From: Sistotremastrum niveocremeum HHB9708
Taxonomy: Eukaryota; Basidiomycota; Agaricomycetes; Sistotremastrales; Sistotremastraceae
Direction: 5' to 3'
Assembly (NCBI GenBank): GCA_001630475.1
Contig: KV419451.1
Location: 62,001-126,000, forward strand
Length of the DNA: 64,000 bases
Shown: positions 13,194 through 45,691 of the stretch, piece after piece
How the letters are laid out: every line of letters begins with the position of its first letter
Numbering within the stretch: position 1 is the first letter of the stretch
The notes under the pieces: generated by a model
Told to the model about the DNA's origin: nothing
Seen by the model: the letters and a program-made list of their open reading frames with translations, nothing else
The model's database searches: none
Made by a program: the position numbers and the translations under genes

Positions 13194-14128
13194 TCAAGAC
13201 GTGCGACGTTTCTTGGAGACCCCACCCTGTTCCGAGCCTCCTGGGCGAGGACCGTCCTTGCCACCACCGCTTTTTCCTGTCTTCCTTTTCTTCTTCGTCT
13301 GAACAGAAACTGCAGCCCCAGCAGCCGCTGGGGCCGAATTTTTGACTGGGATGCCAACGGCCTTTGCATCCCGAATCTTCTGCTCGAATTCCGCCTCTGC
13401 CTTCATCGCTTTCTCCCTCTTCAGGAGCCGTTCGGCTATCTGGCTCGGGGATTCACCCATGCAGGCGGAGAAGGATTGAATTTTATCTTCAGACATCTCC
13501 AACTCGGTGGCTTCGTCCCATTCTTCGCTGTCGTATTTCTCCTGCCTCAGTCTGGCCTTTTCGTCCGCAGTCAGCCATGACGCGGAGTGCGCGCTATCGA
13601 CCAATTTCTTTCCAAGAAGGTGTAGGTCTCCGTGACCGTTCAAGCCGTCCATGGACAAGACAAATTCGAGGTACGGAGTTCCGCCATCATCAACCTGCTT
13701 GCTGACGTAGAGCTCGTGTTCATCGTGAACGTCGATCCAGTCTCCATCATCCTCGTCGCGTTCATCGTCATCTCCTGTATATTTGAGATTCAATCGCCAA
13801 CAACTCTTCCGCAAGCCGTCCGTGTTATCAGAGTGTTCTCTGAACTTGAGAATGTCGCACTTGATCGACCCGTACTCGAGTTGGCCGGTGAGATTCTCCA
13901 GAGTGATGGAAGAAGAGGAATTTCGAAGGCTAATTGTCATGCCTCCCCAATCGACTACATGGGGATCAAGAAATCCGGGTCCGATGCTCATCAGAGCGTC
14001 CTTGAAAACCCATCGATATTGACCCACTATTTGCGAAAGTGGCGTCTGGACTTCATTGATATCGTCCTAACAGCGGAAAATGTGAGCTTGATTCTGAAAA
14101 GGTACTCTTCTGGTGTTCGTACCCACAT
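13194..14128 (-). CDS. Paralogue A of an unrecognised four-member nuclear-type family
   Basis: Exon 2 runs 14066-13194. It begins DDINEVQTPLSQIVGQYRWV after a TTAG acceptor (intron 14067-14122) and is open upstream of the internal ATG at 14027. Exon 1 ends ATG TGG (14128-14123) in phase 0; the minimal start is ATG 14128, an alternative in-frame ATG is at 14170. Core features shared with the other three copies: GQYRWVFKD, GGMTISLRN, CDILKFREH, WRLNLKYTGDD, DEHELYVSKQVDDGGTPYLE and LLGKKLVD. The C-terminal third is Lys/Arg-rich with KKKRK and KKRR, probable nuclear localisation signals. No signal peptide or TM. It is head to head with paralogue B, 364 bp apart, so promoter sharing is possible. 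Function unknown. Confidence 0.75.
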
Positions 14129-14492
14129 GAACGTAGGTCTGGTGGGAGCCTTTGGACATCCTATACACATTGCTATGTAAAAGGCACGTAAGTTCTTCTG
14201 GATGGTCGTTTTCTGGGGCGAGACAAATATAGAATACCTCTTATCTATGCACACCAAGTATAAGTCACGTCACGTCACTTGCGATGAAAGATCTTGAAGA
14301 GCTTTCAGGCGAGGAAGTTGGAACCAGTAAAGCGATGACCTTGGATTAGTCAGCCATTTGAGTTGCTCAACTCAACCTGCGGCGACGCCGCAACATAGGC
14401 GCCAGTTCTCTCAACCTTAAAAGCTTATATTCCTGGTCAGACATTTCATCGGATTGCCGCAGCCTTCCAGTCCCTATTCTCATACTTCTGAC
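14129..14492. promoter_or_regulatory. Shared divergent promoter region of paralogues A and B
   Basis: These 364 bp separate two divergently read family members. A short frame MKDLEELSGEEV (from about 14284) ends in a stop and is not in phase with either gene. The region must contain both leaders and start sites; no clear TATA box is seen. Confidence 0.45.
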
Positions 14493-15396
14493 ATGTGGGT
14501 AAGTAATACTAGAGGTATAAGGCAAACTTCCACGCCCATGATTAATTGACTTTTCTGTGGCGATCAGGACCACAAAGACACAGAGGAAACTCCAATTTCC
14601 GACATCATAGGAGAATATACATGGGTTTTCAGAGATGGAGCCGAGGTGGAACCAGGGTTCCTTGAAGATGATGAGGGTGGCATAACCATCGAACTCAAGG
14701 ACGCCTCATCCCCCACTGCCATGACAAACCTCACCGGCAAAATCAAATACTCGCACTTCCTGGAATGCGACATTCTGGAATTTCAAGAAAAACTTGACGA
14801 CGACGAAGAGCGTCAAAAGAGCGCGTGGAGTCTTGTGTTGAAATATACTGGCGACGATCCTGATTTCGACGGCGCGGACTGTGTAGACTCTGGAATAGGG
14901 CACGAGTTCTTCATTTGCAAAGAAGTCGATGACCATGGCACTCCTTTCATCACGTTGATTGTGGATGCAGACCCAGACATCATTCTTGTTGGCAAGAAAC
15001 GTGTTGCTGGCCGAAAAAAGATGTTGACTTCCAAGGAAAGGAAGAGGGTGGAGAAGGGAGGTATTAGTGGTTCTGCCGGAGAAGTGGAGGAGGTTGAGAG
15101 CTCTTCAGGTATGATCTGATGAGATACTGCTATCACGATTGACTTATCTCGATGTTCCAGTGAAAGCCAAAACGGCGAATTCCAACCACTTAGCTAAAGC
15201 CTCCTCAGAAGCAGCTAAGATCAGGAAAGAAGACAAGGAACAAAAGCCAACACTGAAAGATAATACGGTGGTTGGCGACAAAACAAGTGTATCCGGCTCT
15301 TCCGGGTCAAAGGCGAAATCCAGCGAGAAGCGGAAGATCACCGAGAACGGTGCTGAAAATCCTGACGAAAATCCGAAGAGGGCGCGAAAGACGTGA
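14493..15396 (+). CDS. Paralogue B of the unrecognised family
   Basis: Exons 14493-14498, 14568-15108 and 15161-15396. The first coding exon is only ATG TGG, followed by a GTAAGT intron and then DHKDTEETPISDIIGEYTWV, matching paralogue A in position and phase. The core follows: GGITIELKDASSP, CDILEFQEK, WSLVLKYTGDDPD, IGHEFFICKEVDDHGTPF, IILVGKKRV. The last exon is a Lys/Ser-rich tail ending PKRARKT, a likely nuclear signal. It lacks the long N-terminal arm of paralogues C and D. An upstream exon cannot be excluded, but no ATG in frame precedes the one chosen. Product about 260 aa, nuclear by inference. Confidence 0.75.
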
Positions 15397-15806
15397 CCAT
15401 TCCCGTTGATTGTTTTCCTCCGTCGCCCTTTAGACCGCAACCTACCTAACGGACTATTACGCGGTGGTTTTGGGCAATGACAGTTTTGGTGCATGTGGTG
15501 GCAAGGACCCCGGGAAAGTGCTGTTCGGGATTGCAATATTATGATCTCACATGTTTAGTATCCTTACTTTGTTTTATCTTTCCTCTAATTACATTTCCCT
15601 TGATCTAACTTTGCGTTTTATGGCATCAAGATAACAGGAAACTTGGCGTCCGGAGCGTGACGTCACGCGTTTCTTGGGCGCGATCTGCGACCAGTCAATC
15701 TGGTTCAGGTACATTGTCTCTGGAAAACTACTATTGACATCATCGTTTTACATGTACTGACTCTATCATCGCGTTCAATATAATCAGGCCTATTGTGATG
15801 CGCCCT

Positions 15807-18800
15807 TCAAAGATTTTCTTGTGCATCGTCGCGATACTGTCCAACATCTGCCAATCTCGATAGACACTCTTCAACCTCCTTTTGAGCACCCAAGTATCTA
15901 ATCGAGTCCAGGCATGCTTCGTAGCAGGCTCGGGCTGTGTCTGCGTCTCTGTTGGACAAACAGACATCCCCAAATCCTCGAATATTCTGCCAAACAACTA
16001 TCCTGCGAAAGGTTTTACGACCCAGCGATGCGGCAGTGATATAGTAGTTGGTTGCAACTTCATGTTTCCGCATACCAAGAGCAGCATCGCCCATCTTATG
16101 CAATAAATACGCTTCCGTGTCCAGCATTATTTGGCCGGTACTTCGGATGAGTATTCTCGCTTCACTGAGGTGGGCCCATGCGGTCGAGTAATGGCCCAGC
16201 ATAACATCTATACGCCCAATCTGACCAAGGCACATCCCCTGCGGAACTGATGCGCCAATTTTGACGTAGTATCGCATTGCGGCATATGACCGTACTTTTG
16301 CCAATCCAAAGTCGCCCTGCTCTAAAGCCAGAGAGCCCCACAGCAGGGTATGCATTGCAAGCGCGTTCGGATCTGCTCCTAGTTTGACAAAGAGTTGACC
16401 GGCCTCTTGAAATTGAGACTGGGCTTCGTCGAGTTTGCCTTCCGCTATCATAATCTCGGCTAGCTGGAGAAGAGTCCGAGCATGGAAGCGAGAATCGTGA
16501 ATGAGTCGACTGTAAGAATCGAGGGCGCGGTGGCTCCGCTTTTCAGCCTCGATGAGGAAGCCTTGATCGTGGAGAACAGCGGCCTGGGTATGATAGATCT
16601 CTGCTCTGATCAGCGGTAAATCTTGTGCTTCCGCAATCGTCAGCGCTTCACTATCTGCTTTGCTGGCATCCTTCGGACGTGACGCTTCATGGAATGTCAG
16701 AGAAAGAAGCTTCCAGGAGTCTGCAAGCCGCCACGTCGATTTATGCTTGGAGTACAATGCAATGGCTTCTTGAAGGCATTGAATCGCGAGATTGTACTGG
16801 CTATCAATGCGAGCACAGTCTGCCAAGCCGCGCAACGAGGCCGCTCTGGTCAGCGCAATAGACCGTTCATCACCACCCTTAATCGCCCCGAGTGCTCTTA
16901 ATCCGCATTCAACATTGACGCGATAGTCAGCGATCGAAATGCTCCGCTGAAACGCGCCCCGCCCAATATTCAAGCAATCCAACTCCAGCTTAGGATTGCT
17001 AATCTCACGGGCCGCAGACAGGGCAAGAGGAAGCAGATTCCAAACTAGAGATGTTGATCCGGAGAACTCCCCCATCCGTATTGTTGCCTCGATCGACTCA
17101 AGTGGAGGCTCCTTGCTCTGGAGTGTATTGAGAAGCACGGTGAAGATATTCATAAGTTGAGATTGGATCCGGTTCAGAACTTCCTTGTCCCGATAGGTTC
17201 CAGAATCGTCAACAGATTTCGTGAGTTCGAAGAAATATAATTGAAGGTGATGTAAGGCTGCACCATCAAGTGGATTATGCAGCTGGATATATTCTCGGAT
17301 CGGAGATAGCGACCGTAAACGACCTGAGCCATGTTCGACGTAGATAAGAGTCACTTGGCGCAGAGTTGAGATAGCTGCTGGTAGTTGAGCACCGTCTCCA
17401 TATAACATTGTCGGTAGCTCGGACGTTAAGACTCCATCCGGAAGGAGAGATAAGATTTGCAGAATGCGGATCGCGAGGGGCGTTCTGCGCAGTCGTTCGC
17501 TAGAAATGGAGACCTCAATGGAAATCTCAACACTCGACAGTCGACTATCGAAACCACGGGTCAACATCTTCGTTTTGTCTTCCTGCCATTGTGCAAGAAG
17601 TGCTTCGCAGCTGGTATGCTGACACATATTCGCCATCAATGTCACGGCGAGGGGAACATAATCAAGCTCCTCAAGAAGCTTCGGCAGGAATATGTCATCT
17701 TCAGCAGTGTCAGACACGGCCACGAATGTCTTTTTGGCTGCTTCATAGTCGATCGCTGCAAGGGGCGGTAGGCAGGGTCGCTTCCAAGCTATGCCTGATG
17801 GTCGTTCTGCACCTCGAAGGGTGAGAAGGAGGGAGAGTTCGGGCACATCGGCCAGCCTGGATAAGAGTTCTTCCGCTTTGCATCTCTCCTGCGCGCTTTC
17901 CCATGGCGTCTCGAAGTTATCAAAGACGATTAATGATCGAGGCCTTCGGCGAAACACGGCAACTATCTGACTTTGAGAAGCTTTGCCTTCGATGCCGAGA
18001 TAGTGGCCGAGGAATACGACAAGACTGTCCGCCGTGGACAAAGCTTCGCATGAGATGTAGTGTCGGTTATCTCGGAAGCTAGAGAGGACGTCGTGGTGAT
18101 GCAAGACGGCTAAGGCGACAGATGTTTTCCCTATTCCCGGTGGACCTAGAATCGCAACATGCGATTGTCCTGTAGTTGATAATTGTTGGACTATAGACTC
18201 GACGATCTCCGATCTTCCGAAGAAGACCTGCGGGGCAGGAGGCAAATTTGCTGGGATTGATTCTAACAGGTTTTGATCGTCGGACTACAGTTGAGTCTGA
18301 TCAGCATGGAAAAGAACAAGTTTGAGATAAGGAAGATGTCTCACTTCATTATTGTGACCATTCACTACCTCGACCTGCTCTCGATACACGTGAGAAACCG
18401 CGGCTTCGAATTCGTCATGATATCGGACAGTATTCCGCTGAATGGAGGCAGCAAGTATCGAGTTGGCGAACTGTGCCTCCACAAGGAAAGAAGAGATACA
18501 TTGATCCAATTCTTTCTCTAAATTATTGATCATGACAGCCTCGTTCGAGAACTTGAGAATTCGAACAACTTTGCCATGAGCGCGCAAACTCTCGAGGCCA
18601 TTCCTAATGATTTGCAACGTCTCCAGGAGCTTCCCAACTGCTCGTACTAGACCCTCGGTTATGGCTACAGGGCGTCCTTGCAACGGTTCAACCACGGCCC
18701 AACACATTTCAAGCGTCTTTTCGAGTAGCCGTGCAAGGTTATATTCATTATCGGTATGCCCCTAGAAGACAGCGTAAGCATTCGGCACGTTTGAGACATG

Positions 18801-18956
18801 CTTGGAGGCACTCACAGTGGCCGCATTATTGATGTCCAGTGCAAGAGAAGCAATAGCCCGTGGATATGGAAGTGTCGATAACATGGCAGTGGTTTGCAAA
18901 GCCTCCAATGCGATCGCAAAGTTCGACCTGGGTGCCACAGTGGGGGTGACTGACAT
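15807..18956 (-). CDS. NLR-like STAND NTPase: MLKL/HeLo-like N-terminus, NB-ARC-type domain, TPR repeats
   Basis: Exons 18956-18816, 18761-18345 and 18284-15807, both introns phase 0; about 1011 aa. Residues 1-180 are helical (IALEALQTTAML, YPRAIASLALDINNAAT, LEKTLEMCWAVVEPLQ, ending QFANSILAASIQRN), like the four-helix MLKL_NTD/HeLo-type domain found on agaric STAND proteins. Then PPAPQVFFGR leads to Walker A GPPGIGKTS, Walker B RSLIVFDNFETPWE and sensor LLTLRGAERP, followed by a winged-helix-like part. The C-terminal 500 residues are TPR-like helical pairs (for example EAIALYSKHKSTWRLADSW, AEIYHTQAAVLHDQG). By family knowledge such proteins are regulated switches, with helical N-termini acting in membrane-directed cell death or signalling. 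All nucleotide-binding motifs look intact. Confidence 0.85.
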
Positions 18957-19151
18957 GGCTGAGGCTCCGTGGGTTTCTGGACAGGGGCGTGATTGCTAGG
19001 CCGAGTGCTATACATTGCAGTCTCCATTTTATGGCTCCTCCTGATCAGCGGCAGCAGTAGTTAATGGGCGCGGAGGTTCTTTGATGGATGGCTCCCGCGT
19101 CAATCGCACATGACGCGTCAACGTCGACGCCGTCGCACACAGCATCCATTG

Positions 19152-19182
<31 letters not shown>

Positions 19183-19941
19183 TGTGTTCGCAGGCGCATG
19201 AAGGGCAAGAGGGGGGGAGTTGCTGTGAGCTGCAGCTGGTGTTCATGGGCCCGGGATCAGGGACTGTCGGAGTCTGAACGAGCCCAGTGAACTGAACCTC
19301 GCAGTCAAGCTGTTCCAAGTTATGATTTTAATGTATTTGGCAAAATCTATCTCTTCTGGAGGGTTTATCATGACTCAGAATATTCAACAAAAAACGGTAT
19401 CGACAGCGGTCTTTGTATATCGATCATACGTAATTCAACAGAGAGGAATAAAAAAACCTCAAAAAAATTGGCTATCATTCCGGCAACATCTTGACATTGT
19501 TTTGTTGCGCAGAGAGCTGAGATCATGCATGTACTTCGCCGAGGCCCCCTATACTGAGGCTCTAATGCGGAAGCTAGCTTATGATTAATAGCGCTCGAGG
19601 TCTCGACAACTTTCACTACTCCAGTGCTCAGCAAACAAGCCAAATGCACCAATATTGATCAACTAACCATCGACAAAACTCTTCAGAATCAACGTAAGAG
19701 ATATCCAAAGAGAAAGTAGAGAAGACGTACAGTATCAACCTTGGTATCGAGCTCCGAGCAGAAGGGAATGGGAGTCCGAGAGCCTCTGATCGCTTGACCC
19801 TTCTTTCAATAGACTGACTGTCTATGATCAGAATACAGTGGTTATCAATGGCATTTCTCTTTATACCTTGAGATCATGGATTCGTCCTACATGCTAATAG
19901 GAGGAGTGTGGTTTGGAAAATACGCACATCATCTAGTACCC
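18957..19941. other. Intergenic between NLR-like gene and WD40 gene 1
   Basis: Contains the poly-G run and otherwise no coding sense. A TTTCAATAG..ACTGACTG string near 19805 recurs downstream of the second WD40 gene (near 22188), consistent with duplicated 3' flanks. Confidence 0.4.
19154..19182 (+). repeat. Poly-G homopolymer, 29 bases
   Basis: An uninterrupted run of 29 G, followed 30 bp later by a second short G run (about 19211-19217). It lies in the region upstream of the NLR-like gene. It could form G-quadruplex DNA; run length is prone to slippage and sequencing error. Confidence 0.9.
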
Positions 19942-21345
19942 TCAGGATAATCTCTTCAGGTCCCAAACCCTCAGTACTCCATCAGCATCCAAGCTGATCA
20001 CTTGAGTTGCGTCAGGAGTCACAATGAAATTCCCAGGGCTCCTGTCCTCTTCCCACCTCCGCTCGATCTCCCACTTGACATTCTCCTGAGTGTCATAGAT
20101 AGTGATAGTTCCATCTCGGGTAGCAAAAGCCAAGATACTAGAATCCACATAATGCAGGTTGGTCACGTCGAGGGATGCAGGCATGGTTTGTTCAGTATGC
20201 GTCTGAAACGCTCCAAGATTCGACACATCGGTCTCCCATCGCTGCGCCTCCAACCCGGTTGTCATGTCAAAGATAATGACTTGACCACCCTCTGTTCCCA
20301 ATGCAAGATAGCGATTATCCTTACTGAAGGAAACCGACGTTATCCAGGTTGTAAGCACTTTGAGCTCATAGATCAATCGTCCCGTAGTGACGTCCCATAT
20401 GTTCATAGTCTTATGGTTTTCCCCCCTGAGAAAGGAAGGGAAAGCAAGAAAGGAGCCGTTTGGGGAGAAGGTAAATGGTCCCGTCATATGGTGATTTCGG
20501 GCTACGGTGAGTTCGTGAAGTCGACTACCATCCGCGCTGCTCCTGAGTTGAACGGTTTGATTGAACGAACGCAAAGCGAGAAATCGGCTGTCATCGCTTA
20601 TTGCGGAGGGATGATTGGGACCATCGTGCGGACATGACCAGACAGTTCTATTTTCGCGGATGTCCCAGCGTGCAGCCGTGCCGGGCGCTGAAGTCGGACG
20701 AAAGAGAACAGATCCATCCGAGGGGAAGAAGATAGATTGCAAGATGTACCCATCGACTGATATATGGATGCCCGGACTCGCAGAAAGATCGTAGATTGAG
20801 ATGAGTGGACGGCCGCTCACAACTTCTTGTTCGGAGATCAAAAGGTGATTTCCATCCAAACCGGGGCTGAACGCAATGCGGTCAATGTGAGCAGCTGCGC
20901 GAACAATCCCTATAACAAAACGGAGAGTTGGAAATCTAAACACATGGACGACAGATCGTGACAGGAGGGGAGGGTGAAGAGCGGTGACCGTATTTGCGAT
21001 GGCCAATAAAGAAGCCTGGGAATTCAGCGATACGTGGATGCCCCGAATATTTTCGTGGGGGAAGAGTGTAAAGGCGTGCCTCTCTTGACCTGCAGTCAAA
21101 GGGCCGCCGCCGGGATTGGTGACGACGTCGGCCCACGAAGCCTGTGAGCCGTTGACTGAGAACGGATGGGATACTCTGTGCGCATAGGCATCGTGGGTTT
21201 CCGCTCCTGTCATCCTGTCTGTGTTGATGCCGGCAGCTCGAGCGACGACATGATCGTCTGAACTCATCGGCGCTTGTGGAGAAAGGCTTTGGGAGATAGC
21301 ACTGGTGGCAAGAGAGCTGAGCTTCAAGAAAAGCCGTAACTGCAT
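19942..21345 (-). CDS. Secreted WD40-type beta-propeller protein, copy 1 (467 aa)
   Basis: Single exon. The N-terminus MQLRLFLKLSSLATSAIS is hydrophobic with basic start, a likely signal peptide. At about residues 56-85 is the conserved stretch HRVSHPFSVNGSQASWADVV then TNPGGGPLTAGQE, shared with copy 2. Degenerate WD40-like blades follow: ISDDSRFLALRSFNQTVQLR, FSPNGSFLAFPS..MNIWDVTTG, FSKDNRYLALGTEGGQVIIF, and the final DADGVLRVWDLKRLS. Several N-x-S/T sites suit a secreted glycoprotein. WD40 proteins are normally intracellular scaffolds, so secretion would be unusual. Copy 2 lies about 1 kb upstream in the same orientation, so the pair looks like a tandem duplication. Function unknown. Confidence 0.75.
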   Translation of the reverse strand: MQLRLFLKLSSLATSAISQSLSPQAPMSSDDHVVARAAGINTDRMTGAETHDAYAHRVSHPFSVNGSQASWADVVTNPGGGPLTAGQERHAFTLFPHENIRGIHVSLNSQASLLAIANTVTALHPPLLSRSVVHVFRFPTLRFVIGIVRAAAHIDRIAFSPGLDGNHLLISEQEVVSGRPLISIYDLSASPGIHISVDGYILQSIFFPSDGSVLFRPTSAPGTAARWDIRENRTVWSCPHDGPNHPSAISDDSRFLALRSFNQTVQLRSSADGSRLHELTVARNHHMTGPFTFSPNGSFLAFPSFLRGENHKTMNIWDVTTGRLIYELKVLTTWITSVSFSKDNRYLALGTEGGQVIIFDMTTGLEAQRWETDVSNLGAFQTHTEQTMPASLDVTNLHYVDSSILAFATRDGTITIYDTQENVKWEIERRWEEDRSPGNFIVTPDATQVISLDADGVLRVWDLKRLS

Positions 21346-21598
21346 CCTAAAATTTTGATGCAGGTGTTAGCCACAGCTAAGAGCGGCCAGCGCAACAACG
21401 CACCGAATGAAGTCGTCGTTACAATCCGTCGAGCTCAAGGTCTTCAATTATTGGGACGGATGAGGGAGATAACACAGGGGAGTGCGATTTCGGCGTGACA
21501 GTCATTGTAGACCAAGCCGTCATCTCAGTTCAATTCGAATACTGAGTATGCCGCGTACAAAGCACCAAGCGCCAGCTTGTTATTCACCGAGCGAATGC

Positions 21599-21999
21599 GA
21601 GGTGGATTTAAGTGTCCGCCCGTCCTTTCCTTACGTCATCCCGGCGTTAGCCGCAGAGAAGGTGGCATAGTGATCGCCCTGGGGCCTCGAAATGAAAGTT
21701 AGTTCGGGATAGCTTTGCGCTAATTGTCACTCCTGTACTGCATGTCCCGCTCTAAAATTTGGATATTTGCTCTCTGTATACCCGTCTCTATATACATACC
21801 ACTTTACAGCGTCCCATCCGCCGGATTGAACGACCCATGTCACCACAGCCTGGCAACGCGTCGACGGACTTATCGGGGATGACGGTCCTCGGCGCCTAAG
21901 TCCTTTCTCGCTTCAAATTTGAAATTCGAGATATTAGTTTTGAAGATAAAATTGTAGTATATATGCATGGTATCGAGATGAGACACTTAAATCCACCTC
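21599..21999. repeat. 18 bp perfect inverted repeat pair between the two WD40 genes
   Basis: GAGGTGGATTTAAGTGTC at 21599-21616 is repeated as its exact reverse complement at 21982-21999, with weaker similarity continuing outward (GCGAA). Spacer 365 bp. It could mark a small non-autonomous inverted-repeat element (MITE-like) or paired regulatory sites. No clear target-site duplication is visible. Confidence 0.6.
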
Positions 22000-22343
22000 C
22001 TTCGCGAGGTGGGCTAAAGCACCACGTGCTACGATGTTAATCATGAGCGGTGCGCATGGGAAGCTGACTATATAAGGCAGAAAAAGAGTGTTTTGGGAGT
22101 CCGACACAGGCGCCTGACGAATGCTTCCGCTGTCGCGGCTGGCTAATCCGACTTGTAGAAAGCCTCTGTAATGGCGTGGCCGTCCTTTCAATAGCTATAG
22201 ACTGACTGACGGCGCACAAGACTAGTGTCATGATTTTCAGACGGACGGTTCGCTCATACAGTACACATTTCTGAGAATCTGACTGAGATCTACATAGTAT
22301 TCACTGTTCTGTATGGGAGTGAGGCTTCGTCAACAACTACGTA

Positions 22344-23912
22344 TCAGTGAAGCATGCCACTCGTTCTCTTCAGATGCCATGACACCAATGAACCGTCTGC
22401 ATTCTTACTGACACAGATTAGACCCTTCTCCTTCCCTTCAGGATGCACAGAAACGCCAAATCGACCGGGCTCTCGGTCTCCATCCCACCGACGTTCGATT
22501 TCCCACTTTAAGTTCTCCGCTATATCATAAACGGTGATAGTCCCATCAGTGGTCTGGAAGGCTAGAATATCGTCGCCGATCCACTTGATATTAGTGGCCT
22601 CAATTCGATGCTTCGTTAATTCATGACCTGCGATATCAACTTCCCATCTTTGCACCTCAGCTCCGTCAGTCAGGTCGAAGACCCGGAGTTGACCAGTCGA
22701 TGCCCCACCCGCGAGATAGCGACCGTTTTCGCTGAATGAGGAAGCTTTGACAATGCCGCGGAAATCTGGGAATGAGTGGACTGGTTGACCCGAGCTGACG
22801 TCCCAAATTCTAAGGGTGCGATCACTTGAACCGCACGCAAGGAGAGAGCCGTCAGGGGAGAATTGAAGGCCCCAATTCTTGCCCTCTGCTTCGGTGAACT
22901 CGTGAATCAAATCACCGGTCGCACCGTTCCTGACTTGAACAGTGTGATCCCAGGACGAGGAGGCGACGAGCGTCCCATTGGGATTGAAACTGGAATCCAT
23001 GATGTCATTCGCATGGGAATGAGACCAAAGGGTCTTCCTTTCTGTTATATTCCATGCGGACAATGTGGTCTGCGTAGGCTGATACAGAAGAAGGGTGCTG
23101 TCACCAGAAAAGAATTGAGTCTGAAAGGGAGAAAAGAATCCGTCGAGGTAGAATTTGAGTGCTGGAGAACGAAATATGGACCTCAAAGCGATTATTCTTG
23201 GACCTGGCTGTCCACCATATGGGGAAGAGGACGCGACGAAAGTCCGGCCATCTCGGCTGAACCCCAGATGATCGACTGCGCCTTGAAGTCGAAAAGATAG
23301 GACGGGCTTCGTCTGGGGGTCGGCACTAGTGTTGACTACCCGGATTGTGGATTGCTTCAAGTCCTTAGAGACTACCATGGAACTGGCGCAGTCGGGAGGA
23401 GTGGACCCCCGCGCGGCGTGATACGCTTTTGGATCGAATACAAAGCTCCGATTGGCAACTTCCATCAAGGTATCAATTCTGATATGGCAGAGAGGGTTTG
23501 TTTGCCTCATTTGGATCGAGGGTTGTGAAAGGGCTATCAGGGAATGTGCGGGGCTGGAGACGATGCTTGGCCCCCGTGTATAACCCATTTTCTCTCTATG
23601 CGCCTCCTGACCGTCTACCAGAGGACCTCCACCGGTATTGGTGACAACATCGGCCCAAGAGGCATCGACTCCGTTCAAAGAGAACGGCTGAGATACTCGA
23701 TGAACATACGTGCGGAAAAAGTCCACGGTGCTCTCGGATTCGGTCAGCGGTAATTTCTCTTCAACGGCGGTGGCTATTCCGTTTGGTGTAGCGGGAATTT
23801 GAAATGTAGCCTGAGTATCCGGAAAGGAACTCTGCTGCGAGAGACTGGCAGCCCAGATCAATGTCCCTGTTATCTGAATGATGCTCAGGCCAGATAAAAT
23901 TCGTCTGTGCAT
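22344..23912 (-). CDS. Secreted WD40 beta-propeller protein, copy 2 (522 aa)
   Basis: Single exon, ATG 23912. Signal-peptide-like start (MHRRILSGLSIIQITGTLIW). The shared family stretch is HRVSQPFSLNGVDASWADVV, then TNTGGGPLVDGQE. Three canonical WD40 repeats are clear: SFNPNGTLVASSSWDHTVQV, FSPDGSLLACGSSDRTLRIW (then DVSSGQ) and FSENGRYLAGGASTGQLRVF (then DLTDG). It ends KNADGSLVSWHLKRTS, like copy 1. The better-kept blades here suggest this copy is closer to the ancestor while copy 1 has diverged. N-glycosylation sites (NTSAD, NRSF, NGT) fit secretion. Predicted extracellular or vesicular; partner unknown. Confidence 0.8.
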   Translation of the reverse strand: MHRRILSGLSIIQITGTLIWAASLSQQSSFPDTQATFQIPATPNGIATAVEEKLPLTESESTVDFFRTYVHRVSQPFSLNGVDASWADVVTNTGGGPLVDGQEAHREKMGYTRGPSIVSSPAHSLIALSQPSIQMRQTNPLCHIRIDTLMEVANRSFVFDPKAYHAARGSTPPDCASSMVVSKDLKQSTIRVVNTSADPQTKPVLSFRLQGAVDHLGFSRDGRTFVASSSPYGGQPGPRIIALRSIFRSPALKFYLDGFFSPFQTQFFSGDSTLLLYQPTQTTLSAWNITERKTLWSHSHANDIMDSSFNPNGTLVASSSWDHTVQVRNGATGDLIHEFTEAEGKNWGLQFSPDGSLLACGSSDRTLRIWDVSSGQPVHSFPDFRGIVKASSFSENGRYLAGGASTGQLRVFDLTDGAEVQRWEVDIAGHELTKHRIEATNIKWIGDDILAFQTTDGTITVYDIAENLKWEIERRWDGDREPGRFGVSVHPEGKEKGLICVSKNADGSLVSWHLKRTSGMLH

Positions 23913-24411
23913 TCTGAGACTCGCAGGGTGAGTACGATCGATGTGATAAACACACAGTGAGAATCTTACCTGATGCTAACAAGGCTTGTTTGACTTTATC
24001 ACAGAACCTGACGCTGCAAAGTCGACTCTGCCGCGGCCTTGGTATCAAAGGAGACACGACGGTGGGTCTCTCGCGCCCTTCAGGAGCCTAACGGGGAACA
24101 GACATGACTCCCATTTGATGCTGCGTCGAATGTAGATCCCAGCTCATCTGGCAATGAATTGAGCGGTACCGGTAGACAGGAGGCTGATTATGTAAGCCTC
24201 CCACTTGCGAAGATGCCGAAGCGGCATGTTTATCTTTAAAACTCTGCTTTCAGCCAGTGCAGTCGGGCATTTGAAAGTGCACGTACTTGGTGGGGACGAT
24301 TGATTTCTCGTGATGACTGACGCTGATGTCTCTCTTTGTACTCTCAGTCGTGAGCGGCCAGTATTCTCATGAGCACTGTTGAGGGCTTCAAAAGCCTGTT
24401 CTGACATCTCA
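23913..24411. promoter_or_regulatory. Divergent intergenic region, WD40 copy 2 / paralogue C
   Basis: About 500 bp between a minus-strand and a plus-strand gene; must hold two promoters. No clear core element or coding sense is visible. Confidence 0.35.
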
Positions 24412-25599
24412 ATGTCACTTCGTCTTTCCCCCGAATTCGTACCATGCGCATCGCCTGAGGAGCTTGCCAGGCTCGATATAGTACCAGACACTGTATCCAC
24501 TGCAAATATTGAAACAATTACCGGGGAGCGACAAGATGCAACGCCTGAGACAGGGGGACCTCCGCCGGCAGATGGTACTTGTCAGAGTACATCGAGCAAT
24601 GCGATACCTCTTGGAATGAAGGCTGCTATGGCCCTTCCAAAGGATATCCCAAAACGAAAGCCCAAAAATAGGAGAGCGAAGAAAAAGTTAGTCCACCCAA
24701 TGCGGCCAGAGGTACGCATTACCTTGCCCTCGCTCGATTGCTTGAACTGACTGATGGATTATTCATGACAGCCTATGGGTGACGAAAACACCGTCATACC
24801 TAGCATAATTGGAAGTTATTATTGGGTATTCAAGAAAGTCGGGGATCAAAAACCAGTGTTCCTAAACCTTAATACTGTGTCACCTCAAACGACGTCTCTG
24901 ACGCCTCCAAGGATGTCTCATGGCGCCCTTACCATTACGCTCCGGGACTACACCTCTCCCATCGTTCCATCGAACGTTGTCGGTTATTTCGAGCATGAAG
25001 CGGTCAAATACGTCATCACCAAGGTCGAAGAGCATGATATATATGTATGGCTCCGCGAGCGATGGACCCGTTGCTGGAGACTCGTTCTCGAGCATTCCGA
25101 ACCGAAGCCTCATGCAGCATCTACTTCAAAGCCTCCGAAACATGGAGAAACAAACATGGATGTCGGTACACCGCACGAACTTCTCATTTGTGGGCTCAGA
25201 GATTCCCACAACACGCCTTTTGTCGAGCTCGTGCTACGTACCAAAGGCACCAAGAGGCTGGTTCTGATTGGGAAGAAGTTTCGGGACAACGTTGCTCCGC
25301 AATTGAGCCAGAAAGAGATGGATGAATTAAAGGCGTTGACTACATTTGTGAAGATTGGAGCCGACCCAAAAGATGTCGGTGGGCTCGACAATGGAGGTGA
25401 CGAAGAAGACGGACCACTGATGATCACAACCATTCCGACCCCTCCTACTTCGCCTTCCCCGCTTGAAGATGGAGAGGTTGATGAATATACTTTCGCTGGA
25501 GGTTCAGCCGGTCCTTCGACGACATCATTGCAGAAACGGAGTCGGGAAGATCGATTGGACGTTCACTTTGAACAGAGGAAAAAAATGCGGACTGCTTGA
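24412..25599 (+). CDS. Paralogue C of the unrecognised family (375 aa)
   Basis: Exons 24412-24711 and 24772-25599, phase 0. The N-terminal arm starts MSLRLSPEFVPCASPEEL, nearly identical to paralogue D, then a disordered Thr/Pro/Lys-rich linker with KRKPKNRRAKKK. Exon 2 starts PMGDENTVIPSIIGSYYWV, aligning with the exon 2 start of the other copies. The core follows: GALTITLRDYTSPIVPSNVV, TRCWRLVLEHSE, GTPHELLICGLRDSHNTPFV, ELVLRTKG, RLVLIGKKFRD. A shared proline motif GPLMITTIPTPPTSP and LEDGEVDE comes next, ending in basic RKKMRTA. Predicted nuclear, with a folded beta-rich core flanked by basic arms. Function unknown. Confidence 0.8.
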
Positions 25600-25929
25600 C
25601 GATTTGTATTGTTAATATATTATACAGATAGAGCCTAATTTTATACCCAGTTAGTAGCTTTCTGAGCCTTTCTCCAGACCGCCGAGGTTACCACAGGACT
25701 CCTTATTTATTGATCCTTTCGGAGAATTCAAGTTTCTTCATCACAGTTAATTCGTTGTCTCCGAGCGGGGAGAGGAAAGATACGTTGTTCATGATTGTTC
25801 CTCTGCCTTAGTTAGTCGACAACAATTTCTCAACATAACTAAGCCCAAGTTCGTTGTTTTTATTAGCCGCCCACATTATGGGCGCTTATTCCAAAACCTA
25901 ATTCTGCTCTGCTATATCGATATCACGCG

Positions 25930-27120
25930 ATGTCGCTTCGCCTTTCTCCCGAATTCATCCCATGCGCGTCGCCTGAGGAGTTGGATAATCTCGCACCTGA
26001 GATAAAATACACGCCTACTATCCAGGAAAAGGCGAAAGAGGCACAGAAAAGCAAGTTGCAGAAAAGCCAAAAGCCAAAAGCGAACGGCCCGGGTACATCG
26101 AGCAACGCTCAGCCTCTTGGGAATAAATCTACTACTATTTCAACTGTTTCGACTCCTCCTTCCCAGGAAAAATCGAAGGGAAAGAATAAAAAGAAGAAAC
26201 AGAAGAAAGTAGATCCAACGTTAGCGGTAAGATTTCTCTGACTGTTCCTTGAAATATTACTCGTACCGACAGACCGGTTTGTGCTACAGCCCATCCTCGA
26301 CGAACATACTCTCGTTTCTCAACTAATCGGACGATATCTCTGGGTATACAAGAACGATAGCATCCATCCCCCAACATTCCTCGAGCCCAGCGCGTCCTCG
26401 CCATCGTCTGGCGGTCTAACGATCAAACTTCGAGATCCCACATCTCCCATCGTCCCCTCAAACATTTTCGGTTACCTCGAAAGCGGATCTATCAATTGCA
26501 AAATCACCCAAATCGAAGAACACGGTGTCCTAAAAGGCTCTCGAGATCGCTGGACACGTCGCTGGAGACTCACTCTCGAATATCCCGAACAACCTTCCAC
26601 AGGCACATTAGGCAGACCTTTGGAAATTGGAGAACCTTACACGATCCCGGGGACACCACATGAACTTTTTATTTGCAAGTTGCATGATTCTGAGGACGTT
26701 CCGTTCGTCGAGATGGTGTTGAGGATTAAAGGCGTCGATCGAGCGACGAGTGGACTGGTGCTTATTGGGAAGAAATTTCGCGGTGATGAAAAACCTACAT
26801 TATCTGCGAAAGAGATCAAACGGTTAAAGAAGTTGAATGGTTTGGTGGACGCTGCCCCGAGCTTGGCGCCCCGGGGAGGTAATGCAGGCAAGAAGAGTGA
26901 CTGTTTTGGTGACGATGAAGACGGGCCACTCATAATAACGACCATCCTGACTCCACCGCCTACACCCGTTTATCTCGAAGATGGGGAGATTAAGGAGGAC
27001 ATTCGGGAAAGTGATATGCCTTACTTCCCCATGACATCGTCGCAAAAAAGGGAGAGGGACTTCACGGAATATGATGGTTCCGAGAGGCTCAAAAGAGTTC
27101 GAACGACTCGGATGAGCTGA
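25930..27120 (+). CDS. Paralogue D of the unrecognised family (375 aa)
   Basis: Exons 25930-26226 and 26290-27120, phase 0; same length and intron position as paralogue C, 330 bp downstream of it, so a tandem duplicate. Starts MSLRLSPEFIPCASPEEL; linker ends KGKNKKKKQKKVDPTLA. The core reads VSQLIGRYLWVYKND, GGLTIKLRDPTSPIVPSNIF, CKITQIEEHG, TRRWRLTLEYPEQ, GTPHELFICKLHDSEDVPFV, LVLIGKKFRG, LSAKEIKRLKKL. The proline motif is GPLIITTILTPPPTP with LEDGEIKED. C-terminus KRVRTTRMS is basic. Predicted nuclear; function unknown. Confidence 0.82.
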
Positions 27121-27478: not shown

Positions 27479-29378
27479 TTACAGTATTCCAGCCACCGCA
27501 GCGTGCACGGCATTCGGAATTTCTGATATAAACGAAAGAGTATGATGGTTGAACTGAGCCAACGATTGTCCGCCGGTAAGCATAGGAATAATATCCTGAG
27601 GTTGTTCGAAAGTCGGCTTTCCTGCCACCGGCGCCTATACAAGCCTTGATCAGAGGCCGCACAAATATACACCGCAAAGAATTCACATACCGGATCATTC
27701 CAAATAGCCTGCATCTTCAACTCAAAAGGTCCGAGCTCGGTATAGATAGGCGTCCAATCCTTCCCAAAGGCCTTATGCAGATCATTCAACGTGATCATAT
27801 TACTCGGATTATCCAACTCCAAAGGACTATTTGCGAGCGATTTATGGAATACGGATGTCTTGGCGAATTGCCCGCCTTTGAGTCGGTTCTCGGGCCCGAT
27901 GACGAATTTTTCGGCGAATTTGAGCTCCTGCCAGGAGTTGTGGGGTTGAGAGGCTCCCCAGGCTGGTTTGCCGGCGCGAGTGGAGCGAGTTCGAGCGATG
28001 AAGTCTGTGTCGATGTCGAGGAGTTGTAAAGAGGTTATTTGATCCTAGTATGCGGGCTCTATCAGACTTGGTCACCAAAATGAGAAGGAAAGTCGACGTA
28101 CGACCATCCAGAAGAGCGAGATGTCAGACATCTCGTGGATCTCGTAACCGCCTCCGACATCTGCATGTGCTCCTGCGAAAAACACCTGGAAGTCATTTAT
28201 TAGTACTATCGTCGCCGATGGTCATATTCGGAGCGGACCTGTTTGACGATTTGATTAGGCAGTTTGGTCTTTTCGTCCCATTGAGTGAGCATGAAGCGAT
28301 CGCGATCTTCGTGGAATGACATGGCGTGCAAAGCGACCTCACAGCCGGGAATGAGACTATCGTGAGTGCATATATGAGCACGGAATAGTGCGTTGACGGT
28401 TAATAGGATACGGACCTGTTATCTTCGATACTGAGGGCGTTGATAACTTGATCTTTGAGCCCAAGCCATACAGATCCGACAGTATCAAAGCATCCGATCA
28501 CCCTATATGCGCGATTAGACTCCGATCAAGGTTTAAAAATATGGCCCGTACTTTATGGGAATCTGAGTCGTCGGGATGGGGGGTGCGATGCCACTTCCGG
28601 GTTGTGCCAAATCTTGCCAGTAAGCATAGAAAAGACCCATCTGATCTTTGGAAAGGAGTCCGATCTTTTGCTGCATATATACACCGATATTAGCAAGATA
28701 TAATATCGGAAGTGAAGCTATCCACGCACGATAAGTCCTGATATTTTACGGACAGTATATGATCCTCGAGAAAAGCCGAAAAGGCAGATATCATCTCCCG
28801 GACGGTAATTTCCAGCAATGAAAGCATATGCGTCACGAATTTTGCTCGCTGATGATGGAGACATGATATCAATACGGAGGATAACTAGAGAGAGCAAGAT
28901 GGTCAGCGCACCGACTGTGGTTCCAAACGATGCGAGCAAGAGATCTCCATCCCAGGACTTGTTGTAAAAATCGGCCTCGCTGCCTACTCCTGTTTGGTAG
29001 AACACGATCTGCTCCTTATCGACGCCGCTGTGAAGAGATCAGAGAAAGATAGCGACAAAAATGCGAAGTATACTGACTTGAATTTGGAGTATGGCCTGAC
29101 GGAACGCGCTATGAAGATAGTCAGGATCAATCGACAAGCAACGCCGAAAAGACGTACACAAGCGAAGCACGTTCGTGAAATAGGTGGTGGCACCGTCAGA
29201 TGGGCCAGTGTCGTCCGCACCTATCCATTCACATCCTGGAGATTAGTTCTGCTCGACCTAGGTACACTCGTAGCAGCGACTCACGAGAGATCAACCCATC
29301 TTGACTCGTCCCGTCACAGAAAACGATGATAGACTTGGGAGGAATAGGATTACTTTGTTGGGATGCAGAAAAGGCCAT
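27479..29378 (-). CDS. DUF2235 alpha/beta-hydrolase
   Basis: About ten short exons. ATG 29378 gives MAFSASQQSNPIPPKSIIVF followed by CDGTSQDG, the DUF2235 opening motif. In-phase joins then give YFTNVLRLSRSVRPYSKFNG, QIVFYQTGVGSEADF, IRDAYAFIAGNYRPGDDICL with nucleophile elbow FGFSRGSYTVRK, LSKDQMGLFYAYWQ, VIGCFDTVGSVWLGL (Asp), CEVALHAMSFHEDR, VFFAGAHADVGGGYE (His) and SLFWMV. The last exon (27634-27479) ends TAA. The Ser-Asp-His set is complete, so an active enzyme is expected. The family resembles the catalytic part of type VI secretion phospholipases (Tle1); fungal members are common in agarics and their substrates are mostly unknown. Confidence 0.85.
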
Positions 29379-37528: not shown

Positions 37529-38167
37529 TCATTTGAACGCGGAAAACCTGAGGATATAATGTTCCCCATGTTCGGTTGGGAAATGCGTTGCCCCCAGCTT
37601 CTTATAGAACTTCTTTCCCTCTTCGTTCCTTGGGTCAACGCCAATCCAAAGCCCCTCCATCTTAGGATCCACCTCCTGCAGATGCTCAACCACCTTCTTC
37701 ATCAGCTTACGGCCCCATCCTTGCCGTTGTAGTGGAGGGAGGATATTCATGTGAATATGAGCAGGCGAAAACTCGAGTACGTTCTCTGGCGTATCGAAAG
37801 GTTTGTGAATGATATTGACGTAGAACTTGTCTAGGTCTGTGAGCTCTGGCGAACTCGCCAGTTCGAGGGGATATTTCTCGCGCAAGGGAGGAAACCACGT
37901 CTCCTCCGTCGCTTCGCGATATTTCTTGCTGTCGGAGGTGGCTACAATGTAGCCCACGACTTCTTCTGCTCCGTCCTTTCCTGCTGCCACCAGGACGTAC
38001 CCGAAGGTGGTGGGAAGGCTGACATAAGGCAACGCCCACATCAGTCCTGGTAGCTCCCCGATGGTATGGAGATGTTCGGCGGAAGTGCCGAAGTTCGATG
38101 TAAGAAGGCATATACGAGAGATGGAAGGTTTATCCTCCTCTCTAGCCTCTCGGATGTAGGTGGTCAT
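37529..38167 (-). CDS. GNAT-family N-acetyltransferase, copy 1 (212 aa)
   Basis: Single exon. Starts MTTYIREAREEDKPSISRIC, typical of the GNAT beta1-alpha1 start; the acetyl-CoA loop is LQRQGWGRKLMKKV (Q-x-x-G-x-G) and the C-terminal beta-strand/helix is GLWIGVDPRN then GKKFYKKLGATHF. Length and order match stand-alone GNATs of the kind annotated in fungi as O-GlcNAcase-like acetyltransferases. The acceptor substrate is unknown. It is tandem with copy 2, about 380 bp apart, and clearly homologous (SPELTDLDKFYVNIIHKPFD against SPEFDLTELDKYFIKRIHHP). Confidence 0.88.
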   Translation of the reverse strand: MTTYIREAREEDKPSISRICLLTSNFGTSAEHLHTIGELPGLMWALPYVSLPTTFGYVLVAAGKDGAEEVVGYIVATSDSKKYREATEETWFPPLREKYPLELASSPELTDLDKFYVNIIHKPFDTPENVLEFSPAHIHMNILPPLQRQGWGRKLMKKVVEHLQEVDPKMEGLWIGVDPRNEEGKKFYKKLGATHFPTEHGEHYILRFSAFK

Positions 38168-38549
38168 GATTTATCTGGATGAAATGGAGACTGAGGAGCA
38201 AACAGGGCTTGGGAGTACGATAAGCTGAAGAGCTCGGAGCAAAACCAGCTTTTCAAGACCTGTTCTTTATGCAATACGGCTTCCTCGAAGATTGTGCCTT
38301 CCGAATGGCGATTCATCGAAGTTCCTCCGAGTTTGTGCTCCGCTGGGGCCGAGCCTCTGAGTGCTCTGAAGCGGACCTCAATACGTGACCACTTCGGAGA
38401 GCTATGGCTTCCCTGGACTTCCGTTATCAATACAAGAGTGTACCATTGGCAAAAATCGCGCTTGACGTCAGCGTTTCCGACGAGTGGCACAGTTAACGAC
38501 GGTCTGCTACAGTACATAACAGGACACAACATTTGATACATTGAATCTC

Positions 38550-39209
38550 TCAAACCCCGAACGTAGAGAACTTGTGCTTAAAGTATTCATGCCCGTCTTT
38601 CCCTGCCTTCTGATATTCACCTCCGATTTTCGTATAGAACCTGATACTGGGCAAGTTCCGAGGCTCGATCCCATTCCAAACCCCTTCCATCGTAGGATCA
38701 ATCTCCTTCAACCTCTCTGCCACCTTCACAATCATCTTCCGACCCCATCCTTGTCCCTGCAACTCTGGAAGGATGGAGATATGGAAATGTGCCGGCGAGA
38801 AATCCAGCATTTCCTGCGCGTAAGTGATCGGATGATGAATACGCTTAATGAAATATTTGTCCAACTCCGTCAAGTCGAACTCGGGCGAATCCAACATCTC
38901 CAGAGGATATTTGATCTTCAGCGGCGGTTCCCAAATCGTCAACGCTGCTTCTCTCCACTTCACCGTATCTGAAGTAGCGACGATATATCCCATCACTTCT
39001 TCCTTCGCTCCATCCTCATCGCCTCGTTTGACTAGGACGTATCCGAAGCCTGTGGGGAGAGAAATGTAGGGCAATGCCCATGCTAAGGGTGGTAGCTCCT
39101 TGATGGTTAGGAGATGGTCGGCAGATGTGCCCGCGTCCGCCGTGAGGAGGCTGATATGAGCTATAACAGGCTTGTCAGCTTCGGTGGCTTCGCGAAGGTA
39201 AACGACCAT
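38550..39209 (-). CDS. GNAT-family N-acetyltransferase, copy 2 (219 aa)
   Basis: Single exon. Starts MVVYLREATEADKPVIAHIS; acetyl-CoA loop LQGQGWGRKMIVKV; C-terminal GVWNGIEPRNLPSIRFYTKI. Same architecture and local order as copy 1, with shared segments LPLAWALPYISLPTGFGYVL-like (PPLAWALPYISLPTGFGYVL) and GYIVATSDTVKWREA. Expected soluble acetyltransferase; substrate unknown. The two copies probably come from one duplication and have diverged moderately. Confidence 0.88.
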   Translation of the reverse strand: MVVYLREATEADKPVIAHISLLTADAGTSADHLLTIKELPPLAWALPYISLPTGFGYVLVKRGDEDGAKEEVMGYIVATSDTVKWREAALTIWEPPLKIKYPLEMLDSPEFDLTELDKYFIKRIHHPITYAQEMLDFSPAHFHISILPELQGQGWGRKMIVKVAERLKEIDPTMEGVWNGIEPRNLPSIRFYTKIGGEYQKAGKDGHEYFKHKFSTFGV

Positions 39210-39816
39210 TTTTTCGACTCTCGTCTCCCTCTTGAAAATCGACGGGATTGAACAGAGTGGGTCTGCTCTTTATATGACTCTTTCGTTGCTTTATTATACA
39301 GGCTAAACGCTTCCGCAGAGTCATAATGGGCGCTTAGCGTGAGAAACGTGTGCTTCCGTCTTTTTCCCGAGATTGCAACTCCGATGATAACTCCGATAGC
39401 TGGCACGTTCTCCCCTCAAAAGGCCCAAATGCAAAATCCAAAGAAAATTCTGCATATCTCTTCTTTCAGTTCGAAAATGAAATCTGGACCTTCTAGCGTT
39501 TGCCAGCCTCTGGGAACATTCAGGACGTCGACCCCTATAAGTCGCTCTACGATGGGCTCCAGAATTTCATATCGTACCATTAGAAGCCCCTATCTTGCCG
39601 GGACCTGATCCGTTATTGGCGGGTTGCTCAACGACAAGCTCAGAGTCCCTGCACTCGCCTTCTCATGACCTCGAATCTCTGCTATAAATATTCTTAGAGG
39701 CCGATCTCTGCACAGCCTCACGGCGTTGGAGACCTTCGTGACGAATATAAAGATCCTGTACGCGAGCTATCTTCTTCTTCCCCATCGCCTTATCGCGGAC
39801 GACACGACACGACACG

Positions 39817-43485: not shown

Positions 43486-45691
43486 CTACGCAGCTATTAT
43501 GGGGGATTTGCAGTCTTTCTTATGCACTTTCCAATGCGCTTTTTGACTGTTTCATATTTAGGTTAGTCAACTGAAAATAAAATCGAGCGGCTAGCACACT
43601 AACCAATCTTTGTCGCAATAAGAAGTTTGGCCGCAGATGGAACATTTCCGTAACGAAGCATTTGGTTTCCCACATGACGAGCAGCGATAAAAGTGAACAT
43701 CTTTGTGGGCGCCTACGAGGCTCCTGATCAACAATTTTCGGTTTGCATTGGTTGACGGTGATCCATCGAGGCGTAAAGTTTCAATATTCTCGGATAGAAT
43801 GTCAATTGGCGCTTCTCTATTCTGCGAAGCTTGTTCCTCTTCGGCCCACTGACATGTGTTAGCGCGCGCGAGGAAATGTTTCCATTCAGATGCGGTCGTC
43901 GGGAAGTACTTGAATATCATGTCCTTCACAGTTCCAGACGGAAAGCCCTGGCCCGGTAAACCGCCCTCTTGCACGGCAACGAAGTCATTAATCTTTTGTA
44001 TGAGAGGGATCTTCTTCATGATGTACTGTGTATGAATGTGATTAGAACTGGGTACCAGGTGACATCCGCTTTGAGGAATTATCTACTCACATTCAACTCT
44101 TTCAAATCCGGACTGAGACTCGGCCCGTGACGCAGCACCTCGACAAGAACGGTGAGATTGATGAGCCCAATCAGACCGGTAGAGTCTGGAGGCGCAGTAT
44201 CAATGAGCATCAGAAAATGCCGATATGACGAATTCAGATGCTCAATTCCTTCGGTAAACTGGGAACTACGCGGAGGAAGGACAAGCAGTTGAAGAGCTCG
44301 CTCCCATCCACGTGTAGAGCTTTCCGTGAGAAGAGCATAACGCTCGTATGCAGGGAGATCAGGACACTCGAGGCCTTTCAAAGCCAGTTCCAGCACCTCG
44401 GGATCGATCGTGTCCATCGCAAAGGTGAGTGCGTAATACCAAAATCCGATTTGTGGCGATCGTATGGCCGCCTTTCCGGCAATCTCTTTTACGCGTTCGA
44501 ACTGTCCAATACGCAGCAAGAACTTGAGCTCCAGAATGTCTCCAAGATCAAGCTCAGATCTTGATCGAAGAATCTGGGCTGCGTAAGGAAGAGTTTCGAA
44601 CCACGTGTTGTAAGGGAGCTCCGAGCTCTTCCACGCAAAGGGGGCAGCTAATGCCAGGCGGTCAGCTCCTAGCATTGCTTTGGCAAACGTTTTGCCGAAC
44701 TCGAAGAAGTCAAGACTCTCATCCTGCTGAGCTAGAAACTCAGACAGTTCAGCAGTAGCGCTCATGATAATAGGCCCATGGCAACGCGAATGTCCGTAAG
44801 CCTCTAAATCAGACTGCAGATTAGGAGGGAAACCATTCGTCCAAGCCTTGACAATATGTCTACTGGCGAAGACTTGGGATTCCGGGTCTCGGCGACGACA
44901 AAAGTCGAAAAGCACTCGCATCCCATGTGCCCGGACATGCAGGGAAGAACTTCGAAGACAAGCAACGAAGAACTGAACGGAACGCGGATTGGAGAATACT
45001 ATGTCGGGGAACAGATACGCGAGGGCGACGGCCAACCAGATCTCGTCGCACGTGGTTTCGGAAATTTTGGCTTGTGTGCTCAGAGCTACCTCTGCTATGG
45101 GAGCCTCTCTGACTATTTCTCCTTGTAATCGGTCCAGCAGAAGGGTATTGAGTCTGCGGACATCCACACGTTTGCGAGCGATCGCAGAGCGTATCATAGG
45201 ATACTCCACGCCGTGAAGGAACGTACATTTGAAACAGAATCCCATGAGCTGAAGTATCACCCCAACATAGTTGCGCTTGACGGTCGGACTGAACAGGAGT
45301 GCAGAAAGCTCAGGAAGATGATTCAATGAAACATCGTTGCAGATGTCTACGTCCGGAGGATATTGCCGTAGAAATCGCCATAAGGCTTCTATCGCAAGAT
45401 ATCGATCTTCTGATGGACGCTTGAGCACGGCTACTATTCTAGGCAACCAACCTGTGATAGCTTCAGCGTCAGGAATTACGACAACAGAATAGTCAGATCC
45501 CAACCGTCTTGATAGATCTTTGTCCGCAAGCCACCATCGAGAAACAAATCTCGCAGGCATGCTAGCACTAAAGCACTGACAATCGGGACCTTTGTATGCC
45601 CGGTATACAGCTCGAGGATGCTGGCCATAATTTCTGGATAATTGTCATGCACTTTCTTGAATCCACTGCGTGACTTCAAGTCTTTGAACAT
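43486..45691 (-). CDS. MYND zinc-finger protein with alpha-helical N-terminal region, copy 1
   Basis: ATG 45691 (MFKDLKSRSGFKKVHDNYPE); earlier in-frame codons begin with TTG only. A phase-1 intron after QDG joins to WLPRIVAVLKRP; later introns join LKELN to YIMKKIPLI and, within the finger, YCDKDC to QKAHWKVHKKDC. The MYND finger is FYRCSSCGKPNASLRKCSIC then GQTSYCDKDC, complete. The 600-residue N-terminal part is helical with Leu-rich segments (armadillo/HEAT-like in look). MYND fingers bind Pro-rich peptides; agarics carry many such proteins of unknown role. No SET domain is present. Stop TAG 43486-43488. Copy 2 follows upstream on the same strand. Confidence 0.8.

Follow-up and report, generated by a model that had tools for sequence, protein, structure and literature searches.

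A clustered family of paralogous genes with a predicted lipocalin-like core beside NLR and Tle1-like genes in the fungus Sistotremastrum niveocremeum

A 64,000-nucleotide stretch of contig KV419451.1 (C58:62001-126000, with C58 denoting this contig; hereafter the window) from the basidiomycete Sistotremastrum niveocremeum HHB9708 (assembly GCA_001630475.1; 34.7 Mb, 111 contigs) contains four paralogous genes, A to D, each encoding one copy of a shared core, beside an NLR-like gene, NLR-1. A fifth member, gene E, lies outside the window on the same contig and carries two such cores, E1 and E2. All six cores are confined to 43 kb of C58 and fall into two subtypes. Structural modelling suggested a lipocalin-like barrel, and we read the genes, with a probability of roughly 0.4, as an intracellular, probably nuclear family of such barrels that diversified beside NLR and Tle1-like genes and may be read or guarded by their products in defence.

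The cores have a length of 163-189 residues, and the four in the window could be aligned end to end with pairwise identities of 32-51%. In whole-genome searches the E values of the six window-core pairs ranged from 2.8e-8 to 7.0e-44, and BLASTP of three of these pairs gave 1e-22, 3e-26 and 6e-20, each in a single comparison. This similarity is far above chance, and A to D are a real paralogous family. The ordered motifs listed in a preliminary description of this DNA were present in all four cores, with variants (LLGKK in A and LVGKK in B). A Gly-x-Tyr-x-Trp in the first strand, with Tyr and not Trp as the second residue after Gly, was conserved in all six cores, as was L-[ILV]-G-[KR]-[KR] at the last strand, ahead of the final helix. 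A tree of the six cores separated A, B and E1 from C, D and E2 (support 99/98); E2 forms a long branch and its placement is therefore less sure. Gene E combines one core of each subtype, E1 being of the A/B type and E2 of the C/D type. The family of four in the preliminary description thus consists of real paralogues but was incomplete, the actual number being five genes with six cores in two subtypes.

Whole-genome searches with four of the six cores as queries (D, B, E2 and A) retrieved the four window cores and the two of gene E, and no further convincing copy elsewhere in the genome; these searches score the best candidates only, exon by exon, and distant copies could escape them. The known six were also the only cores returned by tblastn of all six against the window and nine other stretches of the same genome (best others E 0.51-0.98). 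One match at C9:711378 on another contig (E 0.028, 34 residues), in a gene that by eye resembles a J-domain protein, was taken as chance because it was seen with one query core and was absent with the other three. A second-haplotype artefact was likewise rejected, gene B and the single-copy flippase exon between the two cluster halves giving one match each in the assembly. No relative of the D core was found among viral contigs and bacterial or archaeal genomes, a comparison that says nothing about fungi, and a search of titles and abstract starts in the open-access literature, made in general terms for a family that has no name, gave no account of such a family.

The core is new to the Pfam, NCBIfam and PADLOC profile libraries. 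None of the six cores matched any of them at E up to 10, with the HMMER filters discarding most matches above ~0.1, and whether PADLOC includes a Cap15 model was unchecked; the earlier statement that no recognised domain is present therefore stands. Comparison of the cores with PDB sequences gave nothing convincing. A SeqA_N match of A (E 0.16) lay below the cut-off and outside the core and was not retained. An exon-by-exon search of this genome did not detect Lipocalin_2, for which 4 of 14 controls were positive, and the silence of Lipocalin_5 here is uninformative because the controls were silent too.

All four window genes stand where the preliminary description had placed them, with every frame intact, A and B head to head with starts diverging over 364 bp, possibly a shared promoter, and C and D in tandem. 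A phase-0 GT-AG intron lies directly before the core in each (56, 69, 60 and 63 nt in A, B, C and D, respectively). The introns must be removed for the ATG to be read through into the core, because in-frame stops occur in three of the four and the remaining one, at 56 nt, shifts the reading frame. The first exon consists of two codons only (Met-Trp) in A, B and E. A 66-nt intron probably also precedes the second core of E, but this segment keeps the frame and contains no stop, so that splicing there is unproven. Genes C and D are 81% identical over their first 64 coding bases (24412-24475 and 25930-25993), the rest of exon 1 being strongly diverged; the common start MSLRLSPEF[VI]PCASPEEL may reflect either a constrained N-terminal segment or gene conversion.

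AlphaFold2 models were built from the four window cores with either D or B as the lead sequence, five models each. The best models reached a predicted local distance difference test score (pLDDT) of 72.8 and a predicted template modelling score (pTM) of 0.73 when led by D, and 77.2 and 0.76 when led by B. Both are predicted to have the identical order of a short helix, eight main strands and a final helix, with one additional 3-residue strand in the B model; the two are not independent, the identical four cores lying behind both. In Foldseek searches of the PDB, all 25 best matches of the B model were lipocalins by name (best E 0.0089), and the 25 best of the D model comprised 12 lipocalins (including CirpA1, which we take to be one), 3 Cap15, 3 avidin-type and 3 TbpB structures and 4 others.

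As described before, the C-terminal tails are rich in Lys and Arg, which make up 18-27% of the last 45 residues of A to D vs 13-15% overall. A bipartite pattern resembling a nuclear localisation signal (NLS) was found within the last 45 residues of all five proteins (A to E), and also in 3.6-9.5% of 1000 shuffles per protein. Because this pattern was set with the tails already in view, and because paralogues do not count as independent cases, the nuclear part of our reading is weakened; the tails are therefore regarded as support, not proof. No hydrophobic leader or transmembrane-like stretch was observed in any of the five proteins, the maximum 19-residue mean hydropathy being 1.19. Judged from these sequence features, the five proteins are probably intracellular and nuclear.

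The grouping of the genes around an NLR-like gene was borne out, as NLR-1 carries NACHT/NB-ARC-like and TPR matches and two related NLRs, NLR-2 and NLR-3, are present on C58 besides. Gene B and NLR-1 are convergent, with 410 bp between the end of B and the end of the NLR-1 frame, and lie next to each other; adjacency by itself does not show a partnership between a core gene and an NLR. The NLR-3 match lies ~3.2 kb from the end of gene E, and a Tle1-like gene separates the two. A genome search with the main exon of NLR-1 listed 35 matches, some of which may be parts of one gene; the top two were NLR-3 (40.3 kb, 55%) and NLR-2 (36.5 kb, 54%), and the next among those listed was on contig C6 (46%). 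In direct comparison, NLR-2 and NLR-3 are 58-61% alike over the main stretch and 47% over the N-terminal 135 residues, each is 53-55% like NLR-1, and the three C58 NLRs are 46-48% like the C6 one. Among the four NLRs compared, the three on C58 are mutually closest. Pfam gave only AAA_9, below cut-off, for the N-terminal part of NLR-1. The N-terminal part of NLR-2 had no sequence match in the PDB; it may resemble MLKL-type bundles. The matched stretch of NLR-2 (C58:36520-38961) contains one in-frame TAG, consistent with either an intron or a broken copy.

Genes D and E each have a Tle1-like gene as a convergent neighbour. A 119-residue part of the D-side gene shares 57% with the E-side gene and 47% with the sole other match, on C13, and the C13 copy shares 42% with the one on the E side; among the relatives found for the D-side gene, the closest is the copy beside E. 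No core gene was detected in the 10 kb around the C13 copy. The Tle1-like catalytic model PF09994 (window 28718-29038, minus strand) gave 37 exon-wise matches on eight contigs of this genome (C7, C13, C14, C16, C18, C44, C58 and C69) and was positive in 0 of 14 control genomes, indicating a many-copy family here. Two WD40 genes are situated between NLR-1 and C, and they need not belong to the unit because the best match of the second is on C26 (54%).

Other features of the region were recorded. C58:136151-140949 and C22:499032-503831 share 4.8 kb at 99.8% identity in inverted orientation, 251 bases before the end of C58, which is probably an unmerged contig overlap, and C58 and C22 may therefore adjoin each other in the genome; three NLR matches fall in the last 31 kb of C22, including one inside the stretch in common with C58. 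Tandem pairs were noticed by eye at 37529-38170 and 38550-39269 of the window (minus strand; similar open reading frames named as acetyltransferase-like) and at 44079-45644 and 46817-48181 (minus strand; two long related-looking open reading frames). Upstream of the window, two similar regions at L016:6701-7570 and L016:9371-9998 (plus strand), with an alpha/beta-hydrolase-like GHS-x-GG recognised by eye, are probably tandem duplicates; the pieces L016:6701-7570 and L016:9371-9751 were searched against Pfam up to E 0.1 and gave no match.

Table 1 Positions of the core genes and their neighbours (window coordinates unless C58 is given).
Feature	Position	Strand	Content and basis
Gene A	13194..14128	-	exon 1 ATG TGG 14123-14128; intron 14067-14122; exon 2, core and Lys/Arg-rich tail; 292 residues
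Core of A	13542..14060	-	A/B subtype; core alignment, tree
NLS-like tail of A	13194..13331	-	bipartite, last 45 residues; pattern scan
A-B intergenic region	14129..14492	.	364 bp between divergent start codons; gene models
Gene B	14493..15396	+	exon 1 ATG TGG; intron 14499-14567; core exon; intron 15109-15160; tail exon; 260 residues
Core of B	14568..15056	+	A/B subtype; modelled (m025c891b6146); core alignment, AlphaFold
NLS-like tail of B	15259..15396	+	bipartite, last 45 residues; pattern scan
NLR-1	15807..18761	-	NACHT/NB-ARC-like NTPase and TPR 15807-18284; N-terminal open frame 18285-18761; convergent with B
WD40-repeat protein 1	19942..21366	-	may lie outside the unit; open frame
WD40-repeat protein 2	22344..23975	-	closest relative on C26; may lie outside the unit; open frame
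Gene C	24412..25599	+	exon 1 (MSLRLSPEFVPCASPEEL...); intron 24712-24771; core exon including tail; 375 residues
Core of C	24772..25338	+	C/D subtype; core alignment, tree
NLS-like tail of C	25462..25599	+	bipartite, last 45 residues; pattern scan
Gene D	25930..27120	+	exon 1 (MSLRLSPEFIPCASPEEL...); intron 26227-26289; core exon including tail; 375 residues
Core of D	26293..26835	+	C/D subtype; modelled (m5de0c8448a20); core alignment, AlphaFold
NLS-like tail of D	26983..27120	+	bipartite, last 45 residues; pattern scan
Tle1-like alpha/beta-hydrolase gene	27688..29038	-	several exons; convergent with D; matched stretches only
Gene E	C58:46029-47705	-	two cores; outside the window, ~14 kb from its edge; whole-genome core search

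The simplest account is that the family was duplicated together with the local NLR/hydrolase neighbourhood. The core would form a lipocalin-like eight-stranded beta-barrel, accompanied by disordered linkers and a C-terminal bipartite NLS, and the family would have duplicated and diversified within one chromosome stretch that also holds duplicated NLR and Tle1-like genes. Fusion of two subtypes often marks proteins acting together, and because gene E carries one core of each, cores of the A/B and C/D types may act as a pair, either as a heterodimer or as a double barrel. We infer an immune role for the core family, in which the ligand of the barrel and its variable loops might be either a small molecule or another protein, and the bound state could be read or guarded by the neighbouring NLR and hydrolase products in a self/non-self or defence response. 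Such a sensor or guarded-partner role would fit fungal NLR loci as presented in PMC9815663 and PMC12258605. It would be a long shot to go further and regard the proteins as nucleus-targeted paired-barrel receptors that detect a small-molecule ligand, perhaps a nucleotide signal like the one sensed by bacterial Cap15, and that leave the killing to the neighbouring NLRs and a Tle1-like phospholipase.

Observations on the neighbourhood and on the fold weigh against the reading of a barrel family monitored by NLR or hydrolase products. Concerning the neighbourhood, 31 of the 35 listed NLR matches lie on other contigs, on which no core was found; a fourth NLR match on C58, at 136.8 kb (33%), is 47 kb away from D; and unrelated genes (flippase, F-box and WD40) share the stretch with the cores, so that the clustering of cores with NLRs may be passive. 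These points, together with the NLS-like tails and the lack of a hydrophobic leader, are in line with a lineage-specific nuclear family that has no immune role, for instance a chromatin or transcription cofactor using a barrel or sandwich for protein contacts, whose proximity to NLRs would reflect a duplication-prone region. This explanation is a serious contender, if short of an even chance. Against it, every core copy found accompanies a single NLR and a single Tle1-like sublineage, and each of the two Tle1-like genes of C58 is convergent with a core gene.

Concerning the fold, the AlphaFold2 models of ranks 2-5 were weaker, with mean pLDDT down to 61.8 (D-led) and 59.8 (B-led). A significant match to a well-known domain, which the preliminary description had named as grounds for abandoning its claim, was looked for and none was found by sequence; in Foldseek searches of the PDB, neither model had a match at E <= 0.001. 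Among the 50 matches listed per model, the query-normalised TM did not exceed 0.50 and the root-mean-square deviation (rmsd) was 4.4-20 A, with many B-model matches above 10 A; at ranks 26-50 of the D model, barrels were mixed with unrelated folds, and a search of viral structures gave nothing convincing. Profiles of the cores retrieved no lipocalin among PDB sequences. In hhalign comparison with 31 Blc-type bacterial lipocalins, selected from 80 fetched sequences to include more diverged ones, the cores reached a probability of 1.1%, no better than controls: 4 of 100 column shuffles scored as high in local mode (reversed profile 18.4 vs 18.75) and 8 of 100 in global mode (reversed profile 3.3 vs 6.65). 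The core may accordingly have a different all-beta fold, with four-sequence models and weak Foldseek matches being misleading, which we consider unlikely but well worth keeping in mind, given that the order of elements is shared by both models despite their different lead sequences, albeit with all four cores common to both, and that lipocalins or similar barrels top both Foldseek lists. The core earlier called unplaceable in any known family indeed lacks a sequence match, but its predicted fold resembles the well-known lipocalin-like barrel with a non-significant fold match; similarly, the comparison with fold databases that had been proposed placed lipocalins and similar barrels first for both models, but weakly. 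Our confidence that the core folds like a lipocalin is moderate only, and identity as a lipocalin is unsupported, because the Foldseek matches are non-significant and the profile test failed. A secreted or surface carrier, whose signal peptide was missed by the gene models, is suggested by the resemblance to secreted lipocalins and is highly improbable in view of non-hydrophobic start exons, the absence of any 19-residue window above the hydropathy given earlier and the NLS-like tails of all five proteins.

If the reading of NLR-associated barrels holds, this fungus would possess lipocalin-like proteins that reside inside the cell, probably in the nucleus, and are encoded next to NLR and lipase-like genes. 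The family would then offer a concrete candidate for the target that some fungal NLRs sense or guard, and the two-core gene E provides a testable prediction of subtype pairing. If the neighbourhood is incidental, the cores still represent a domain family absent from the profile libraries tried, for which a simple structural test is possible.

Lipocalins are built from a short N-terminal helix, eight strands and a C-terminal helix, and carry Gly-x-Trp in the first strand. The cores may resemble lipocalins (calycin superfamily; siderocalin, nitrophorins and Blc) in this predicted order of elements, and all six carry Gly-x-Tyr at the position of the lipocalin Gly-x-Trp. Unlike lipocalins, they show no detected sequence homology, and the proteins are without a secretion signal and carry an NLS-like tail, long linkers and, in gene E, two cores. 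The Cap15 barrel was found among the Foldseek matches at ranks 3, 4 and 7 for the D model and 31 for the B model (target-normalised TM 0.57-0.66, E 0.03-0.10). According to PMC12657218, the Cap15/OptE (S-2TM-beta) cyclic-dinucleotide receptors sit in the bacterial defence systems CBASS and Panoptes. Their barrel is fused to two transmembrane helices, unlike the five core proteins with no transmembrane-like stretch, and a nucleotide-making partner is a feature of their systems. Extra genes or domains accompany fungal NLRs, as described in PMC9815663 and PMC12258605, and the latter reports, in Sordariales, one NLR in head-to-head arrangement that has a Lipocalin_5 domain; here, by comparison, the predicted barrel, without a match to the Lipocalin_5 model, is encoded on separate genes.

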